From: Halomonas socia
GTDB taxonomy: Bacteria > Pseudomonadota > Gammaproteobacteria > Pseudomonadales > Halomonadaceae
Direction of reading: 5' to 3'
Assembly (NCBI RefSeq): GCF_010977575.1
Contig: NZ_CP048812.1
Location: forward strand, 2,418,001-2,482,000
DNA length: 64,000 bases
Below, piece by piece: positions 28,675 through 57,312 of this stretch. A program made the translations under genes and the position numbers. A model generated the notes under the pieces. It saw only the letters and a list, made by a program, of their open reading frames with translations. It was not told the origin of the DNA and did no database searches. Positions within the stretch are counted from its first letter, which is position 1, and each line of letters starts with the position of its first letter.

Positions 28675-29475
28675 ATGCAGGGACTTCGGCGCGGGCTGTT
28701 GATGGTGATGCTGGCCTGGCTGCCTGGCCTGGCCCACGCAGAGGTGCCAACGGTGGCCGCTGCCTCGGACCTGCAGTTCGCCCTGGAGGAAGTCGCCGAG
28801 CGCTTCAGCGCCGAGACCGGCCAGGCGCTGCGCCTGAACTTCGGCTCGTCGGGCAACTTCCGCCGCCAGATCGCCCAGGGCGCACCCTTCGAGCTCTACC
28901 TCTCCGCCGACGAGGCCTACGTCGAGGCGCTCCACGCCGAGGGGCATACCGTCGATGCGGGCGTGCGCTATGCGGTGGGGCGACTGGTATGGCTGCAGCC
29001 TGCCGGGCGCGATGACCTGCCCGGCGACGACGCGCCGCTGGCCGCGGTGGAGGCCGCGGTAGCCAGCCTGCAGGCGGGTCAGGGGCGGGCGCGCATCGCC
29101 CTGGCCAACCCCGAACATGCGCCCTACGGCGTGGCCGCGCAGCAGGCGCTGGAGCATGCCGGGCTGTGGGACGAGATGCAGCCGCTCAAGGTACTCGGCG
29201 AGAATGTCTCTCAGGCGGCGCAGTTCGCGCTGGGCGGCGACGCCCGCGGCGGCCTGGTGGCCTATTCGCTGGCCCTGGCGCCGACGCTGGCGGCACGCGC
29301 GGACCATGTGCTGATTCCCGAGGCGTGGCACGCGCCGCTCAACCAGCGTATGGCGCTGATCGAAGGCGCCGGCGACACCGCCCGGGCCTTCTACGCCTAC
29401 CTGCAGCAGGATGAGGCGCGCCAGATGCTCGCCGACTACGGCTTCAGTGTGCCGTCGGACAGCGAGTCGCCGTGA
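28675..29475 (+). CDS. modA: Molybdate ABC transporter substrate-binding protein ModA
   Basis: A 266-residue periplasmic protein. The signal peptide ends around GLAHA, then VPTVAAASDLQFALEEVAER begins the mature fold, and LRLNFGSSGNFRRQIAQGAP contains the oxyanion-binding serines; APYGVAAQQALEHAGLWD is also typical. It captures molybdate or tungstate for ModBC. It heads a three-gene operon with overlapping genes. Molybdate supply is relevant to the molybdenum-cofactor-fold and MOSC proteins encoded nearby, though those may not bind the metal. Confidence 0.92.
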   Translation: MQGLRRGLLMVMLAWLPGLAHAEVPTVAAASDLQFALEEVAERFSAETGQALRLNFGSSGNFRRQIAQGAPFELYLSADEAYVEALHAEGHTVDAGVRYAVGRLVWLQPAGRDDLPGDDAPLAAVEAAVASLQAGQGRARIALANPEHAPYGVAAQQALEHAGLWDEMQPLKVLGENVSQAAQFALGGDARGGLVAYSLALAPTLAARADHVLIPEAWHAPLNQRMALIEGAGDTARAFYAYLQQDEARQMLADYGFSVPSDSESP

Positions 29476-30143
29476 TGGACTGGCGTGCGCTGACGGTCTC
29501 GCTGCAGCTGGCAGCCTTTACCTGCCTGCTGTTGATACCCATCGGCTTGTGGCTGGGGCGTGCCCTGGCCAGCCGCCAGTTTCGCGGCAAGGCGCTGTGC
29601 GAGGCGGCGGTGGCACTGCCGCTGGTGATGCCGCCCACCGTGCTGGGTTTCTACCTGATGCAGGCGTTCGGCGTCGAGGCACCGTTTGGCGCACTGTGGC
29701 AGCGGCTGACCGGCAGTGGCCTGAATTTCACCTTCAGCGGCATCCTGCTGGCCTCGCTAGTGGTCAACCTGCCGTTCGCCGTGCAGCCCATCCAGCGCGC
29801 CTTCGAGGGGGTGCCGAACAATGTGCGCGAGGCGGCCTGGTGCTGCGGATTGTCGCCGTGGCGGACCTTTACCCGCATCGAGCTGCCGCTGGTGTGGCCG
29901 GGGTTGGTCTCGGCGCTGGCGCTGACCTTCGCCCATACCCTCGGTGAGTTCGGGGTGATCCTGATGGTCGGTGGCTCCATCGACGGCGAGACGCGGACCC
30001 TGGCGATTTCGATCTACGACCGCGTGCAGGCCTTCGACGAGGCCGGCGCGGGGATCATGTCGGCGATCCTGCTGGCGGTCTCCTTCGTGACCATTGGCGT
30101 GGTCTATGGCCTTGCCCGCCGCGGCAGGGGGCTGCATGTCTGA
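29475..30143 (+). CDS. modB: Molybdate ABC transporter permease ModB
   Basis: A 222-residue membrane subunit with five to six helices. ALPLVMPPTVLGFYLMQAFG near residues 43-62 and the EAA-loop REAAWCCGLSPWRTFTRIELP near 118-138 mark it as ModB. The ATG at 29475 overlaps the modA stop (TGATG); a GTG one codon earlier is also possible. The end overlaps modC by eight bases, so all three mod genes are translationally linked. Confidence 0.93.
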   Translation: MDWRALTVSLQLAAFTCLLLIPIGLWLGRALASRQFRGKALCEAAVALPLVMPPTVLGFYLMQAFGVEAPFGALWQRLTGSGLNFTFSGILLASLVVNLPFAVQPIQRAFEGVPNNVREAAWCCGLSPWRTFTRIELPLVWPGLVSALALTFAHTLGEFGVILMVGGSIDGETRTLAISIYDRVQAFDEAGAGIMSAILLAVSFVTIGVVYGLARRGRGLHV

Positions 30144-31272
30144 GTCATTGTGCCTCGCCCAGGGCCTGGAGGTGCGGCTGCAGCAGGCCGGGCCGATTCC
30201 GCTGGCCGCCGAGTTCTACTGCGCACCCGGTGAGTTGCTGGCGCTGGTGGGCCCCTCCGGCGGCGGCAAGACCACCCTGCTGCGCGCCATTGCCGGCCTC
30301 TACCGCCCCGAGGGTGGCAGCATCCGCTGCGCCTGCGAGCGCTGGTTCGATGCCGCCGCCGGGATCTGCCTGACGCCACAGCACCGTCGTGTCGGCCTGG
30401 TGTTCCAGGACTATGCGTTGTTTCCCCATCTCACCGCCCAGGCCAATGTCATGGCGGCAATGGATCATGTGCCGCGGGGCGAGCGTGCTGCCCGTGCGGT
30501 ACGCTGGCTGGCCCAGGTGCGGCTCGAGGGGCTCGAAAAGCGCTATCCGGCGGCGCTGTCCGGCGGCCAGCGCCAGCGGGTGGCGGTGGCGCGGGCGCTG
30601 GCCCGCGAGCCGCGAGTGATGCTGCTCGATGAACCGTTCTCGGCGGTGGACCAGGTCACCCGGCGACGCCTGCAGCGCGAGCTCGCCCAATTGCGCGAGG
30701 TGATCGATATCCCCATCCTGCTGGTCACCCACGACCTGGAGGAGGCCGCGGCGCTGGCCGACCGGCTGTGCGTGCTGCACGCCGGCGAGACGCTGCAGAG
30801 TGGCCCCGCCGAGGCACTGTTTCGCCGCCCGGCATCGCCCCAGGTGGCACGCCTGCTCGATAAGCACAACGTCTTCGAGGGGCAGGCGCTGCGCGGCAAC
30901 GATGGGCAGAGCGGCGTGCAGTGGGGCCCCTACCGGCTCTCCGCCGAGCTGCCGGCAAACGTTGAGAGTGGCGACCAGGTGCACTGGTATATTCCACCTT
31001 CGGATGTCGTGCTTCACCGTCGCGAGCGGCCCTCTCGCGGTGAGCGCGAGAACCCCGTGCATGGCTGGGTCAGCGAGATGATCGTGCTCGGCGGCATCGC
31101 TCAGGTCACCCTGAGCTTTGCCCACACCCGCGATAGCCTGCGTTTCGAGATCGCCACCCATGCGGCGCGTCGCAATGGCCTGTCCCTCGGGGAGCCAGTT
31201 GGCGTATCGCTGTTGACCGCGGGCCTGCACGTCATGCCCGATGCTGGGCCGAGGAGCCTATCGGAAGATTAG
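30136..31272 (+). CDS. modC: Molybdate ABC transporter ATP-binding protein ModC
   Basis: A 378-residue ATPase. Walker A GPSGGGKTTLL (about 38-48), Q-loop VFQDYALFPHLT, signature LSGGQRQRVA, Walker B MLLDEPFSAVD and switch VTHDLEEA are intact. Residues from about 290 form a C-terminal TOBE/Mop domain that in ModC proteins can bind molybdate. It energises ModB. The stop codon overlaps the convergent diguanylate cyclase stop by four bases, leaving no room for a separate terminator. Confidence 0.93.
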   Translation: MSESLCLAQGLEVRLQQAGPIPLAAEFYCAPGELLALVGPSGGGKTTLLRAIAGLYRPEGGSIRCACERWFDAAAGICLTPQHRRVGLVFQDYALFPHLTAQANVMAAMDHVPRGERAARAVRWLAQVRLEGLEKRYPAALSGGQRQRVAVARALAREPRVMLLDEPFSAVDQVTRRRLQRELAQLREVIDIPILLVTHDLEEAAALADRLCVLHAGETLQSGPAEALFRRPASPQVARLLDKHNVFEGQALRGNDGQSGVQWGPYRLSAELPANVESGDQVHWYIPPSDVVLHRRERPSRGERENPVHGWVSEMIVLGGIAQVTLSFAHTRDSLRFEIATHAARRNGLSLGEPVGVSLLTAGLHVMPDAGPRSLSED

Positions 31273-32858
31273 TACGAGGGCGCCGGACTCGACTGATCGA
31301 GCGTTTCGCAGCGGTTACGGCCCCTTGATTTGGCCAGATACAGCGCCTTGTCGGCTTCTACCAGCAGGTGTTGGGGGCTGGTGTCCTGCCCGCTGTGGGT
31401 GGCGATGCCAATGCTGATGGTCACCGGTATGGCCTGCCCATCCTCGCCCTGCAGCGTCAGGCATTCGACATCATGGCGCAACTCCTCGGCGATCTCCCAT
31501 GCAGCACGGCCATCTGCGTTCTTGACGAGTACTGCAAACTCCTCGCCACCGAGTCGGCCCAGCAGGCCCCGCGGATGAAGATGCTTGTCGAGCCGCCGGG
31601 CGACCCCTTGCAACACCGTATCGCCCACCTGGTGGCCATGCTGGTCGTTGATACGTTTGAAATTGTCGATGTCGATCACCAGTACCGAACATGGTTTGGC
31701 TTCGCGTAGCGAGCGTCTCAGCTGTTTGATGGCCTGGCGCAGGAAGGTGCGTCGGTTGGCGAGACCGGTCAACGAGTCGGTGGTAGCCAGTTGCTTGAGC
31801 TCATGCTCCATGCGTTTGCGGTCACTGATGTCCAGGCTCCAGATCAGCCAGGCACGACGCGAGTCGATCTCGAGGTGGCGTACCGAGAGTAGCGCCCAGT
31901 ATGGCGACCTGGGGTCGAGGCGCGCCTCCCAGTTGTCGAGAGCCTGGCTCGTGGCCAGCCGCTGCATGAAGAGTGTGTGCTGGTGCGAATCGACGAATAG
32001 CGATTCGAGAAAACTACTGCCACTGGCGTTGGTGCGTTGCCGAAGGGTGTCGCTGATATAGTAAGCGTGCTGGTCGTTGGCGCCGAGCAGGGCCACGTCG
32101 CTCGGGCTCGAGTCGAGGATGATACCCAGCAGTGCCTTGCGTTCCTTGAGGCGCCGGGTGCGCTCGGCGACACGTTTTTCCAGCGACTGGTTGAGGGTGC
32201 CGAGCTCGCGTGTCAGGTGCAGCGTATGGCGGTGGTCTCTGAACAGCTTGACCGCGAGCAGCAGGCTGCCTGTACCCAATAGCAGCAGCATCCATACCAG
32301 TCGCTGGAAGGTGCGTTTGAGCTCACGGCGTTCTACGTCGAGGCGGCTGGCCACGGCAATATTGGCACTGACGATGATGTCGTGGGTGGGGCCCAGCATG
32401 GTGGGCAGTTGCTCTGCTATTTCCTCGGCGACCTGGAAGACCAATGCTGTGTCTTGCCATGAAAGGCGTGACGCCCAGTCTTTAAGTATCGAATCTAGTC
32501 GCCCGAGCGTTTCGGGAAGTTCGGTGTGCTCTTCGGGTAAATAGTCAAAGACTTGGGTGCGCAATAAGGGAGCGAGTTGACTCTTCGCTACCCCCAGGCG
32601 CTGGATCAGTTCAGGAGCCGCCGCCTCACCTGCCAGCGCGCGGTTGGCGGTTTCGCTCAATCGGCGTGTTTCCGAGTGCAGCTGATAGCTCTGCCACACT
32701 TCGGTATGCATTCCTGGAGCAGAGTACTTCGCATACTTGGCATTGACGGTGACCAGGCTGTAGGCCGTGGCCACGATCATTGTCGCTAGCGTAGACAGGA
32801 GCGCCAGCATGGCCAGCTTATGGTGACGGGGGCGGCTGGGCCGCATGAGCGGCCTCAC
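31269..32858 (-). CDS. Membrane-bound diguanylate cyclase with four-helix-type periplasmic sensor and PAS-like domain
   Basis: Predicted to make cyclic di-GMP from GTP. 529 residues: helix 1 at about 14-38, a helical periplasmic domain to about 186 (with WQSYQLHSETRRL at 55-67), helix 2 at about 187-206, a coiled coil, a PAS-like region (about 245-350) and a GGDEF domain with the active GGEEF at 437-441. The product-inhibition RxxD site is absent (the aligned residues read RGLL), so feedback inhibition may be weak. It starts with GTG overlapping the stop of the upstream periplasmic-protein gene. Its sensor region resembles that of the hybrid kinase at 53067-55244. Confidence 0.9.
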   Translation of the reverse strand: MRPLMRPSRPRHHKLAMLALLSTLATMIVATAYSLVTVNAKYAKYSAPGMHTEVWQSYQLHSETRRLSETANRALAGEAAAPELIQRLGVAKSQLAPLLRTQVFDYLPEEHTELPETLGRLDSILKDWASRLSWQDTALVFQVAEEIAEQLPTMLGPTHDIIVSANIAVASRLDVERRELKRTFQRLVWMLLLLGTGSLLLAVKLFRDHRHTLHLTRELGTLNQSLEKRVAERTRRLKERKALLGIILDSSPSDVALLGANDQHAYYISDTLRQRTNASGSSFLESLFVDSHQHTLFMQRLATSQALDNWEARLDPRSPYWALLSVRHLEIDSRRAWLIWSLDISDRKRMEHELKQLATTDSLTGLANRRTFLRQAIKQLRRSLREAKPCSVLVIDIDNFKRINDQHGHQVGDTVLQGVARRLDKHLHPRGLLGRLGGEEFAVLVKNADGRAAWEIAEELRHDVECLTLQGEDGQAIPVTISIGIATHSGQDTSPQHLLVEADKALYLAKSRGRNRCETLDQSSPAPSY

Positions 32859-33368
32859 TCTAGCCTCAGTTCATCAAGTTGCCACACCGTGCGGCTGAAA
32901 AAAACGCGGGTCAGTAGTTCAGGATGCTCACCATAGGGGTACATGATGACCAGCGGACCGCGCTGACTAATGTTGAGATACTCACCGTTGCGCTGATAGG
33001 CGATGATGGGGTCGTAAACCTCGAGATCGCTACCGGGAATGGCTTCGCGATAGCTGTCCATGGCGCTGGCGGTGAGGCGAGCGGGCAGCGGTTCACCTAA
33101 CCCCTTGAGCAGTGAAGCCAGCGACACCCCTGTCCACTCGGCTTCTTGATCGTCGACATCGGGGATGAAGCCCGTCACGCTGCGCTGAGGGTATGCTTTC
33201 AGGTCGGCCAGGCATGAGTACATGCGGAGCACCCTCCGCAACCGGGTGAATAGTAAGGATAGGCATATCGTGAGGCGGTGCTGCCTGGGCGCCAAAGGCC
33301 AGGACTAGGCCAACTATTGAGAGGCTGGTGATAACTCGTTGCATGCCTGTTCTCGCCATCAGGTCCAT
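32855..33368 (-). pseudogene. Small periplasmic sulfite-oxidase-fold (molybdopterin-binding-like) protein, frameshifted
   Basis: The start at 33368 follows AGAGGAAA and encodes a signal peptide (cleavage near FGAQA). The frame is then lost between about 33215 and 33240, and continues in the next frame as CLADLKAYPQRSVTGF to the end. Removing one base gives 170 residues, close to the 173 of the paralogue at 52501, with the shared GEYL..RGPLVIMYPYGEHPEL and W-Q-L ending. The position of the Mo-ligand cysteine in this fold is not a cysteine. The end overlaps the diguanylate cyclase start, so it is probably its sensory partner. Sequencing error or genuine decay cannot be told apart here. Confidence 0.72.
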
Positions 33369-33482
33369 TGTGGATTTCCTCTGAGCACTGTTCTGGCAGT
33401 AATATCGGCAGGATCTGGCTTAAGCTGTAGCACCTTGTGCGAGCACCCTGATGAGCACCGCTCAAACACGAGAGGACGAAGG

Positions 33483-52500: not shown

Positions 52501-53022
52501 ATGCGTATTCGCCACCGCCTGCCACCCTCCGCCAGCCGGCTGCCGCTGGCCATGCTGCTGAGCGTTCTGCCGTTGGCGGCCTGGGCCCTGCCCAGCCCGC
52601 AGGGCGAGGTGATCCTCACGGTCTCGGGCAATATCGCCCATACCAACGTCGGCGACGAGGCGCATTTCGATATCGATATGTTGATGTCGCTGCCCGCCAG
52701 GGTGATCGAGACCCATACCCCCTGGACCGATGGCCCGAGTGTCTTCGAGGGGCCGCTGGCGCGTGCCCTGCTGGAGGCGGTGGGCGCCGACAGCGAGTCG
52801 GTGCGGGTACGCGCGTTGAACGACTTCGCCGCCGACATCCCGGTCGACAACTTCCACGACTACGATGTGATTCTGGCGCTGACTCGCAATGGCGAGCCGA
52901 TGCCGATTCGCGACTACGGTCCGATTTTCGTGCTCTATCCGTTCGATGACTATCCCGAGCTGCACAACGAGACGATCCGTTTCCGCTCGGTGTGGCAAGT
53001 GGTCAATATCCATGCCGATTGA
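52501..53022 (+). CDS. Small periplasmic sulfite-oxidase-fold protein (molybdopterin-binding-like), no Mo-ligand cysteine
   Basis: A 173-residue exported protein (signal peptide ending AAWA). [51 protein letters not shown] and [18 protein letters not shown] follow the core of the sulfite oxidase/MsrP-type molybdopterin fold, but the protein contains no cysteine at all, so it cannot provide the normal thiolate ligand. It lies 44 bases upstream of a hybrid sensor kinase and is paralogous to the gene before the diguanylate cyclase at 31269. A ligand- or cofactor-sensing role for the kinase is the best inference. Confidence 0.8.
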
Positions 53023-53066: not shown

Positions 53067-55244
53067 ATGCTGCGCTATCCTGGCCGCCTCAAGCTCGGCG
53101 CCTTCGCCGCGCTGCTGTTCTTCGTTGCCGCCATCGCCGTGGCGGGGTTGGTGCTGTGGCGTCAGGACAGCCTGGCGCAGAGCGTTGGTGGCGATACCGC
53201 CTGGGCGGCCTACAAGCTCGATCGTGAGGCGATCCAGCTGCGTTCGCAGTTGGCCCGCCCCGCGGCACAGAACGATCTCAGTGACCTGCGCCTGCGCTTC
53301 GAACTGATGTACAGCCGCGTCAACCTGCTGCGCCGCGGAGAGCTCGCCGAGCTGCTCGACACCATTCCGCGGGCTGCGTCGCTGATGGCGTCGATCATCG
53401 ATCAGGTCGACGCCATCGATACGCAGCTCTACCGCGACGGCTTCTCGCTCCAGGACGGCGGCCGCGAGGCGCTGGATGCGCGCCTCGCGACCCTCAGCGG
53501 CTACAGCGAGGAACTGATCGTGACGATCAATGCCCACCTCGCCGATACCACCACCCGCGAACGCCAACAGCTGCAGCGCCTCTACCGCCTCCTGCTCGCG
53601 CTGATCGTGGCGATGAGTGCCGCCGCCGCGTTGGTGGTGGTGTTCCTGTTCCGCGAGGCACGTGAGAGCGCCGCAGCGCGGCGCGCCACCGAAGCGCTCA
53701 GCGGCGAGCTCGAGGTCGCCGCGCGGCGTGCCGAGGCGGCCAGCCAGGCCAAGAGCGAGTTCCTGGCCACGGTCAGCCATGAGATTCGCACCCCGCTCAA
53801 TGGCGTGATCGGCATGAGCGAGCTGCTGCGCGAGCGGCCGCTGGACGCCACCTCGCGGCACTATGCGGCGACCATTCACGAGAGCGGTGGGCTGCTGCTG
53901 GGGTTGATCAACGACATCCTCGACTTCTCCAGGATCGAGGCCGGCCGCCTCGAGCTGGAGCATACCGACTACGATCTGCGTGAGCTGGTGGCGCGGGCGG
54001 TGGCGCTGTTCGCCCCTCGGGCCAGCGCCAAGTCGCTGACGCTGCGCAGCGTCAGCGACCCGCGGCTGCCGGCACGCCTCTACGGCGACCCTGGACGCAT
54101 CAATCAGGTGATCCTCAACCTGCTCTCCAATGCCATCAAGTTCTCGGCCGACGGCGAGGTGGTGCTGGCCGTCCAGCGCTGCGCGGGTGGGCAGCTCGAG
54201 ATCAGCGTCAGCGACCAGGGCTGCGGCATCGACGAGGCGCAGCGCGAGGCACTGTTCGAGCCCTTCCGCCAGGGCGACGCCTCCACCGCACGACGCTTCG
54301 GCGGTAGCGGGCTGGGGCTGGCGATCTGCAAGCAGCTGGCCAGCGCGATGGGCGGCGAGATCGACTTTACCAGCCAGCCGGGGCAGGGCAGTCGTTTCTG
54401 GCTGCGACTGCCGCTGCAGCCGGCGACGGCCGAAGGCGAGGCGCCGTCGGTGGGCCAGCCAGTTGCCACCACGTCGAGCGTCGGGGCATCGCTGCTGCTG
54501 GTCGAGGACAACCCGATCAATCAGCAGGTGGCGGTGGCCATGCTCGAGCAACTGGGCTGCCAAGTCACGCTGGCGGGCAGCGGGCGCGAAGCCCTGGCAT
54601 GCTGTGAGGCGCAACGCTTCGCACTGATCTTCATGGACGTGCAGATGCCCGACATGGACGGACTGGCGGTGACCCGTGCGCTACGTCAGCATGAGGGCTG
54701 GACGCGGCAAGTGCCCATCGTGGCGATGACTGCCGGGGCGCTGGATGGTGACCAGGCGCGCTGCCGCGAGGCCGGCATGGATGGCTACCTGGCCAAGCCG
54801 CTGTTTCGCGAGACGCTACTGGCGGTGCTCGAACGCCACCTGCCCGGTGAGCCAAGGCCCGCCACGGCGGTGTCGTCTGGTGATGATGGCGAGCCATCGG
54901 CGTGGCTCGACGACGACGCCCTGCATGAGCTGGAGGCGAGTCTACCGCTGAGGGATCGCCGGGCACTGCTGGCGCTGTTGCAGTCCAACATGCCGGCGCG
55001 GCTCGACGAGCTGGCGGCGGCCCAGGCGAGCGGGGATCTGCCACACATCGCGCAGCTGGCGCATCTGATCAAGGGCGAGGCCGGCAGCCTGGGGCTGGGG
55101 CGGTTGGCAGCGGCGGCGCAGCGCCTCGAGCAGGCCGCTGCTCAGCAGGCGCCGTGCCAGGCCGCGCTGGAGACGCTGCGGCAGTGCCTGGCGCCGTCGC
55201 TGGCAGCGCTGGAACGGCGCTGGCCGGGTAGCGAAACCTCATAG
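53067..55244 (+). CDS. Hybrid sensor histidine kinase with receiver and Hpt domains
   Basis: A 725-residue phosphorelay kinase: helix 1 (about 10-31), an all-helical periplasmic domain (32-174; [13 protein letters not shown] at 46-58), helix 2 (175-195), HisKA with phospho-acceptor His238 ([10 protein letters not shown]), HATPase ([10 protein letters not shown] at 351-360, [15 protein letters not shown]), a receiver with Asp524 ([10 protein letters not shown]), and a C-terminal Hpt with His666 ([12 protein letters not shown]). All phosphotransfer residues are present. The terminal response regulator is not in the window. It follows the periplasmic sulfite-oxidase-fold gene, and its sensor domain resembles that of the diguanylate cyclase at 31269. 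Confidence 0.93.
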
Positions 55245-56277: not shown

Positions 56278-57312
56278 CTATACCATTTGCGGATTGGTCG
56301 CCAGCTGCGGCAGGCGCTGGCGCAGGCTGCGTTCGACGACATCCTGACCGGGGCGATAGTCGTCCTGGCAGGCGGCCAGGGCGCGGTTGAGGGTCAGCTC
56401 GGCGATGCGCGCATGGTCCTGGGGCAGGGAATTGACCGGCAGCGGCAGGAAATCCAGCAGCCGGTCGTCGCCGAACGTCGCCAGGCGCAGTTGCTGGGGC
56501 AGGCTGCCCTGCTCGAGCAGGATGTCGAAGACTCCGTCGAGCAAGGTATAGGAGGCGGTGACCAGGGCATCGGGCAGGCCGTGGTCGTCGAGCAGCTGAC
56601 GCATCAGCCGTGCGCCCTCGCCGCGCTCATAGCGCGCCGCGCTGTAGGTCACCGCCTGGGCGGGCGCGTCGGCCAGGGCCTGCTGGAAACCGGCGCGTCG
56701 CTCGACGCTGATCGACAGACGCGGCACGGCGTCGAACCAGGCGATGCGCCCTACCTCGGGAGCCAGCACCGAGCGGGTAAGGGCGTGGGCCGCGGCCTGG
56801 TTGTTGCTGACCACGCTGACGAAGCGCGACGGATCCAAGGCGCGGTCGACGGCGATCACCGGCAGCCCCGTCTCCATCAGCTCGGCGTAGAAGGGGTCGT
56901 CCATGGCCAGACAGCTGGCGACGATCAGGGCGTCGCAGCGCTGCGCACGCAGTGCCCTGGCCAGCTCGCGCTCGCTCTCGGGGTCGTCGTCGGAGCCGAC
57001 GATCAGCAACTGGTAGCCACGTTCCCGGGCGCCGCGCTCGAGACGCTTGGCGAGCCGCGCATAGCTGGCGTTCTCCAGGTCGGGAATGATCAACCCCAGG
57101 GTGCGGCTGGCGCCACGCCGCAGTGCGGCGGCCTGGGCATCGATACGGTAGTGGTGGCGCTCGACCACGGCCATGACCTTGTCGACCGTGTCCTGGCTGA
57201 TGCGCCGCTCCTTGGCCCGGCCGTTGATCACGTAGCTTGCCGTGGTGCGCGAGACGCCGGCCAGGCGGGCGATTTCGGCTAGGGTCATGACGGGTTTCCT
57301 TGGCTTGGGCAT
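56278..57312 (-). CDS. cra: Fructose repressor / catabolite regulator Cra (FruR), LacI family
   Basis: A 344-residue LacI-type regulator with the Cra-type headpiece MTLAEIARLAGVSRTTASYV followed by INGRAKERRIS, and an effector domain typical of Cra (ALRRGASRTLGLIIPDLEN). It represses fruBKA until fructose 1-phosphate binds. Two starts have ribosome sites: 57312 (AAGGAA) and 57288, which gives the usual Cra N-terminus. It is divergent from fruB, with a Cra-type operator at 57428-57441 between them. Confidence 0.92.
   Translation of the reverse strand: MPKPRKPVMTLAEIARLAGVSRTTASYVINGRAKERRISQDTVDKVMAVVERHHYRIDAQAAALRRGASRTLGLIIPDLENASYARLAKRLERGARERGYQLLIVGSDDDPESERELARALRAQRCDALIVASCLAMDDPFYAELMETGLPVIAVDRALDPSRFVSVVSNNQAAAHALTRSVLAPEVGRIAWFDAVPRLSISVERRAGFQQALADAPAQAVTYSAARYERGEGARLMRQLLDDHGLPDALVTASYTLLDGVFDILLEQGSLPQQLRLATFGDDRLLDFLPLPVNSLPQDHARIAELTLNRALAACQDDYRPGQDVVERSLRQRLPQLATNPQMV

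Follow-up and report, generated by a model that had tools for sequence, protein, structure and literature searches.

The two loci of the window (the whole stretch of DNA that was analysed, 64,000 nucleotides) very probably encode PruR signalling pairs, in which a pterin-loaded exported protein, PruR, would alter the output of a membrane sensor with a WX7E motif, towards a phosphorelay at one locus and towards c-di-GMP at the other. One and the same exported module most likely serves both outputs, as a ligand sensor rather than as an enzyme. This had been suggested in an earlier note on this DNA, and it agrees with the homology of the two sensor domains and with the position of the exported family beside sensors. 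Both pairs belong to the published PruR signalling family (PruR-DcpA and PruR-DTB), which places the finding within a recently described group of pterin-signalling systems. The features concerned are the following; the last two lie elsewhere in the genome of this Halomonas-family bacterium, which is a single contig of 4.75 Mb, and come from the family survey described below.

52501-53022, plus strand: PruR-type exported protein, 173 aa (PDB sequence matches, PF00174, pocket residues)
53067-55244, plus strand: DTB-type hybrid histidine kinase, 725 aa (Pfam domains, NCBIfam TorS, WX7E)
33093-33368, minus strand: N-terminal PruR fragment with the signal peptide and the start of the domain (this frame runs into a stop within the gene)
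32855-33304, minus strand: C-terminal PruR frame with most of the domain (match to 7kos at 1.4e-15, dN/dS)
31269-32858, minus strand: membrane diguanylate cyclase, GGDEF only, 529 aa (Pfam, W55/E63 motif, profile comparison)
28675-31272, plus strand: modABC-like transporter genes, convergent to the cyclase locus (Pfam; not counted within the system)
C1:3970403: S1-type PruR locus
C1:3822479: S2-type PruR locus

At the kinase locus the exported protein is encoded by a single frame of 173 aa with a hydrophobic N-terminus, and its translation bears out the earlier claim that it holds no cysteine. Searched against PDB sequences, it matches the pterin-binding-family entries 7rkb (E 4.3e-39), 7kos (1.1e-37), 7kp2 (2.9e-23) and 7kom (2.3e-19), and a sulfite oxidase (E 0.55) is the one other chain listed. 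The ATG of the kinase lies at 53067, 44 bases past the end of this gene. Two transmembrane helices of the kinase flank a periplasmic domain bearing WX7E (W46, E54), and Pfam finds HisKA, HATPase_c, receiver and Hpt domains, with no PAS hit. The best NCBIfam model is TorS (452 bits, under its cut-off of 676.5). When this locus was scanned for promoters and terminators, no promoter-like site came up, and the two terminator-like sites are both inside the kinase gene.

The sensor of the other locus is a 529-aa membrane diguanylate cyclase with a GGEEF motif. The cyclase gene begins with a GTG that overlaps the stop codon of the preceding PruR gene. Its periplasmic domain carries WX7E at W55-E63 and is of the DcpA type, DcpA of Agrobacterium tumefaciens itself being outside the alignments. 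Pfam finds GGDEF and no EAL domain in this protein, which we therefore file as a PruR-partner cyclase and not as a dual-function DcpA. The pairing of an exported protein with a sensor, claimed for both loci, stands for 52501/53067 and for the cyclase at 31269; the exported gene of the cyclase locus is frameshifted.

The review by Rucker et al. 2026 (PMC13259868), in its accessible part, describes PruR as exported, pterin-binding, about 170 aa long and of a sulfite-oxidase-type fold that lacks the Mo-ligand cysteine. The gene downstream of pruR encodes either DcpA (c-di-GMP) or a TorS/BaeS-like DTB kinase; the periplasmic domain of each of these partners carries the WX7E motif, and up to four PruR systems occur in one organism. 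The motif W-x2-Y-x-L-x2-E of the earlier note is this WX7E, and the pairing that it implied to be new had already been published, as PruR-DcpA and PruR-DTB (PMC13259868). To judge by occurrence counts, PruR or DcpA is mentioned in passing in a few other papers, among them PMC10530663, PMC4646962 and PMC6771610. The kinase locus resembles PruR-DTB (e.g. Ruegeria pomeroyi DSS-3) in its small exported PruR upstream of a WX7E kinase with TorS-like HisKA, HATPase and receiver. It differs by an Hpt domain, which the accessible text of PMC13259868 does not name, by the lack of a PAS hit, and by Phe at position 104 of its PruR; Phe at this position is reported there for the PruR of Halomonas elongata. 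The cyclase locus resembles PruR-DcpA of A. tumefaciens (7KOS), where PruR is also immediately upstream of a WX7E membrane c-di-GMP enzyme, but its enzyme is a cyclase without EAL, and its PruR has Asp rather than Asn at position 102 and a frameshifted gene.

We compared the sensors of the kinases with those of the long-cyclase and GGDEF-EAL partners in the bacterial family by hhalign, with 32 of 59 kinase sensors (alignment A3) and 7 of 7 long-cyclase and GGDEF-EAL sensors (A4) as inputs. They are homologous (98.3% probability, E 1.9e-14, 162 columns), as the earlier note had supposed of the two sensors of the window; these two alone give 24% identity over 177 aa by BLASTP (E 4e-7). The motif W-x2-Y-x-L-x2-E-x3-L lies where that note placed it, at residues 55-67 of the cyclase and 46-58 of the kinase. 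Its Trp is aligned in all 66 kinase, long-cyclase and GGDEF-EAL partners. The residue at +8 of this Trp is Glu in 51 of them, Asp in 8 and another residue in 7, and these last seven, with neither Glu nor Asp at the second motif position, count against reading the loci as PruR signalling pairs. One subgroup of kinases (L056, L057, L059, L060, L065, L076) keeps the Trp and has Ala in place of the usual Glu.

For the genome-neighbourhood survey suggested in the earlier note we searched 61 genomes of the bacterial family with a PruR profile of 7 rows. A match at 0.001 was found in 50 of the 61 genomes, and 97 of the 112 match rows (E <=1e-20) were kept with their flanks; the cyclase locus of the window enters these counts (L114) by its domain-frame ORF alone. 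The 15 dropped rows are the window's own N-terminal PruR fragment, one half of a split gene in genome G010, and 13 rows in frames of 258-365 aa, four of which were examined and all carry the enzyme cysteine. On a crude scale, 93 of the 97 PruRs have a hydrophobic stretch near the N-terminus, within 90 aa of it, the broken gene of the window being counted among the 93.

For 95 of the 97 genes the direct downstream neighbour on the same strand is a kinase or a GGDEF protein, whose start lies anywhere from 76 bases before the PruR-type gene ends to 138 bases beyond it (longest-ORF starts). These partners are 59 kinases, 5 long cyclases, 2 GGDEF-EAL proteins and 29 short, GGDEF-only cyclases (369-411 aa). 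Two genes have no direct partner: at L128 the cyclase is 1.3 kb off, beyond an IS605 OrfB-type transposase gene on the opposite strand, and L135 has no sensor partner. Overall, 96 of the 97 PruR-type genes are upstream of a kinase or a diguanylate cyclase on the same strand. The earlier note would have taken the pairing as coincidental if the exported proteins had lain mostly away from sensors, which they do not. The genome of the window, with 29 GGDEF and 30 HATPase match rows, holds three PruR-type genes besides that of the cyclase locus, and its four partners are one of each kind: a kinase, a long cyclase and two short cyclases with different sensors (S1 and S2, below).

The identity of the exported proteins can be examined at the Mo-ligand cysteine and at the pterin pocket (positions in A. 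tumefaciens numbering, by alignment of the 97 PruRs). Both exported proteins of the window match PF00174 above its cut-off, a family that they have in common with MsrP and sulfite oxidase. This match, and the transporter genes that adjoin the cyclase locus and lie near 3 of 5 long-cyclase loci, would suit molybdenum enzymes (MsrP-like or sulfite-oxidase-like) encoded near sensors that regulate them. We consider this highly improbable. At the alignment column where four full-size enzymes from the same bacterial family have their Mo-ligand cysteine, no cysteine occurs in any of the 97 PruRs, 92 of which are gapped there; the last 130 residues are free of cysteine in 91 of the 97. At 173 aa the protein at 52501 is also shorter than the four enzymes, whose open frames measure 261-335 aa, and the best PDB matches are pterin-binding proteins, the only sulfite-oxidase chain being that at E 0.55. 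On the absent cysteine ligand and these matches, an identity as molybdenum enzymes was rejected. The earlier statement that the exported protein of the cyclase locus lacks the Mo-ligand cysteine is in line with this column, and the intact copy of the gene in a relative (G002, same genus) is free of cysteine. Across the genome of the window a PF00174 search gave 3 rows, all PruR-type, and no full-size enzyme of the sulfite-oxidase family. Against PDB sequences, the S2-type PruR of this genome matches at 1.3e-10 and the S1-type PruR only at 0.15.

The three ABC-transporter genes adjoining the cyclase locus encode a solute-binding protein, a permease and an ATPase (Pfam); modABC is the putative name given to them in the earlier note, which was right that such genes are adjacent. 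A general tie to molybdate is unsupported, since the first two of these genes occur in the fetched flanks of only 3 of the 97 loci (the window, a near relative and another genus), all among the 5 long-cyclase loci and none among the other 92. The modABC-like genes are thus conserved beside some members of a single lineage and are not a feature of the system.

In the pocket, all 97 PruRs keep Trp160 and have either Tyr or Phe at position 104, Phe being confined to 28 of the 59 kinase-paired proteins, that of 52501 (Phe104, Trp160) included. Position 102 differs with the partner. It is Asn in 57 of the 59 PruRs paired with kinases and in both of those paired with GGDEF-EAL proteins, and Asp in all 29 paired with short cyclases, in 4 of the 5 paired with long cyclases and in both PruRs without a direct partner (exceptions: kinase-paired L077 and L089, long-cyclase L125). 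The C-terminal frame of the cyclase locus has Asp102, Tyr104 and Trp160, and matches 7rkb, 7kos, 7kp2 and 7kom at 1.4e-15 (7kos) to 2.3e-12. The tie of Asp or Asn102 to partner type comes from the present survey of sequences. In the accessible part of PMC13259868, Asp102 is described in two sequence groups, with a suggestion of pterin specificity.

The genome of the window encodes FolE (GTP cyclohydrolase, 275 bits, cut-off 174), directly followed by FolX (dihydroneopterin triphosphate 2'-epimerase, 196 bits, cut-off 152), and FolM (dihydromonapterin reductase, 341 bits, cut-off 249), as well as FolB (89 bits, cut-off 72). FolE, FolX and FolM make up the tetrahydromonapterin route, whose presence suggests that this pterin is synthesized and may feed the PruRs of the window. 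What the sequences show are the homologies and domains of the proteins, their pairing, the residues of the pocket, the genes of the pterin route and the frameshift; by analogy with A. tumefaciens we infer the ligand, the docking and the direction of the response. Tetrahydromonapterin made by FolE, FolX and FolM would reach the periplasm, as published for A. tumefaciens, and the reduced pterin would bind PruR in its sulfite-oxidase-type fold devoid of the Mo-ligand cysteine. Loaded PruR would then dock on the helical periplasmic domain with the WX7E motif, and docking would change the output across the membrane: a phosphorelay via receiver and Hpt for the kinase at 53067, c-di-GMP synthesis for the cyclase at 31269. 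Two further points count against this explanation: the 31269 protein lacks the EAL of DcpA, and 52501 has Phe and not Tyr at position 104. The proteins might instead be PruR-fold sensors of something other than a monapterin-type pterin, such as a different small molecule or pterins that neighbours release. The Phe104 of 28 of the 59 kinase-paired PruRs and the Asp102 of all 29 short-cyclase-paired ones would fit such a ligand, and the pterin bound in vivo is described as unclear even for A. tumefaciens in the accessible part of PMC13259868. We nevertheless find another ligand unlikely, because Trp160 is kept in every PruR and FolE, FolX and FolM are all in the genome.

The short cyclases differ from the other partners in their sensors. 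WX7E was found in the first 230 residues of none of the 29, and a looser motif (Asp, Gln or Ser allowed) in 6 of 29, all of the S1 set, with the Trp further along and always with Ser. By eye and by alignment the short-cyclase sensors split into two sets. S1 (17 cyclases, plus the one behind the transposase gene) has the consensus GADY...VRAQ...YSEL, and S2 (12 cyclases) has two invariant cysteines in alignment A6; a disulfide between these two might allow the sensor to respond to redox state. Alignment A5 covers 17 of the 18 S1 loci and A6 12 of the 13 S2 loci. Profile comparison of S1 with the WX7E kinase set gave a weak match (88%, E 3.1e-6) in the second half only, including the second transmembrane helix; it gave no usable match of S1 with the long-cyclase sensors or with S2, and no homology of S2 with the WX7E kinase sensors. 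Pfam and PDB sequence searches with the three sensor sets yielded no consistent family, the one PDB row for S2 being a sensor kinase at E 0.17. Among 274 genomes of the class, S1 sensors occur in 4, three of which belong to other families, and in each of these three a PF00174 gene immediately precedes the sensor gene; S2 occurs in one, the window's own, in a sample with few members of the family. The pairing of PruR with short cyclases lacking WX7E, of two sensor families, at 29 of the 97 loci is new here relative to the open-licence literature that was searched, and may be published elsewhere.

On a tree of the PruRs (96 of 97, the 86-aa fragment L145 left out), the five partner types need 4 changes, which is the minimum, with the cyclase-less L135 labelled S2 by resemblance and with joins of long branches that may be false according to a program warning. 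S2, the long cyclases and the GGDEF-EAL proteins are each a single well-supported group, S1 also forms one group, less well supported (88/93), and the kinases need two changes. Since only the minimum number of changes is needed, each PruR lineage appears to keep its sensor type, the two being inherited as a unit across one bacterial family. The Asn/Asp102 split follows the same clades and so reflects few events. We tentatively propose that PruRs serve two sensor families other than WX7E, and that the genome of the window runs four pterin channels (one kinase, three cyclases), with lineages locked to sensor types and residue 102 determining the pterin or redox state to which a channel responds. 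With its one kinase pair and three cyclase pairs this genome is suited to asking whether PruRs differ in the pterin or redox state that they recognize, and residue 102, with its split between Asn and Asp, is a concrete position for such a test.

The stretch 32855-33368 had been presented as an intact gene for an exported protein. It is 514 bases long, which is not divisible by three, and is not one reading frame: the signal peptide is in the frame of 33093-33419 and the domain in that of 32855-33304. The copy of G002 is a single intact frame of 170 aa without cysteine, and a DNA alignment of the window with this relative places the length difference within the PruR gene. A protein of about 170 aa with a secretion signal is encoded by the intact copy of G002, not by the broken gene of the window. 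The domain-frame ORF contains two cysteines, neither of which is present in the intact copy. A programmed frameshift is not favoured, the gene of the relative being in one frame.

Unless there is a sequencing error, the frameshift leaves the cyclase without an exported partner of its own. The last 110 codons of PruR differ from those of the relative mostly by silent changes (dN/dS 0.12, against 0.23 for the cyclase), so the break is either very recent or a sequencing error. The cyclase locus may be a decaying pair whose PruR gene is a genuine pseudogene, in which case the cyclase would be either constitutive or under the control of one of the cell's other PruRs; we judge the chances of this to be a little short of even. 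It concerns the cyclase locus alone and is compatible with the loci being PruR signalling pairs. The frameshift relative to the intact copy of G002 and the three further PruR-type genes of the genome speak for decay, while the two dN/dS values are as expected if the break is very recent or the sequence is in error, and the partner types that follow PruR clades argue against cross-talk. If resequencing confirms the frameshift, the locus would provide a naturally occurring cyclase that lacks its exported partner.

Other observations were made in the relatives and in the window. In G010 a PruR-type gene (C124:6019-6524, L145) appears as two overlapping match pieces and is possibly a second frameshifted copy. 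The IS605 OrfB-type transposase gene (Pfam) at L128:2982-4121, minus strand, lies between a PruR-type gene and an S1-type cyclase in a relative. Scans of the 64-kb window for tRNAs and against Rfam gave no match. Counted by phmmer at E <=1e-20, which could include other LacI-type genes, a gene similar to the LacI-family regulator gene at window 56278-57312 lies near 21 of the 59 kinase loci and near none of the other loci.
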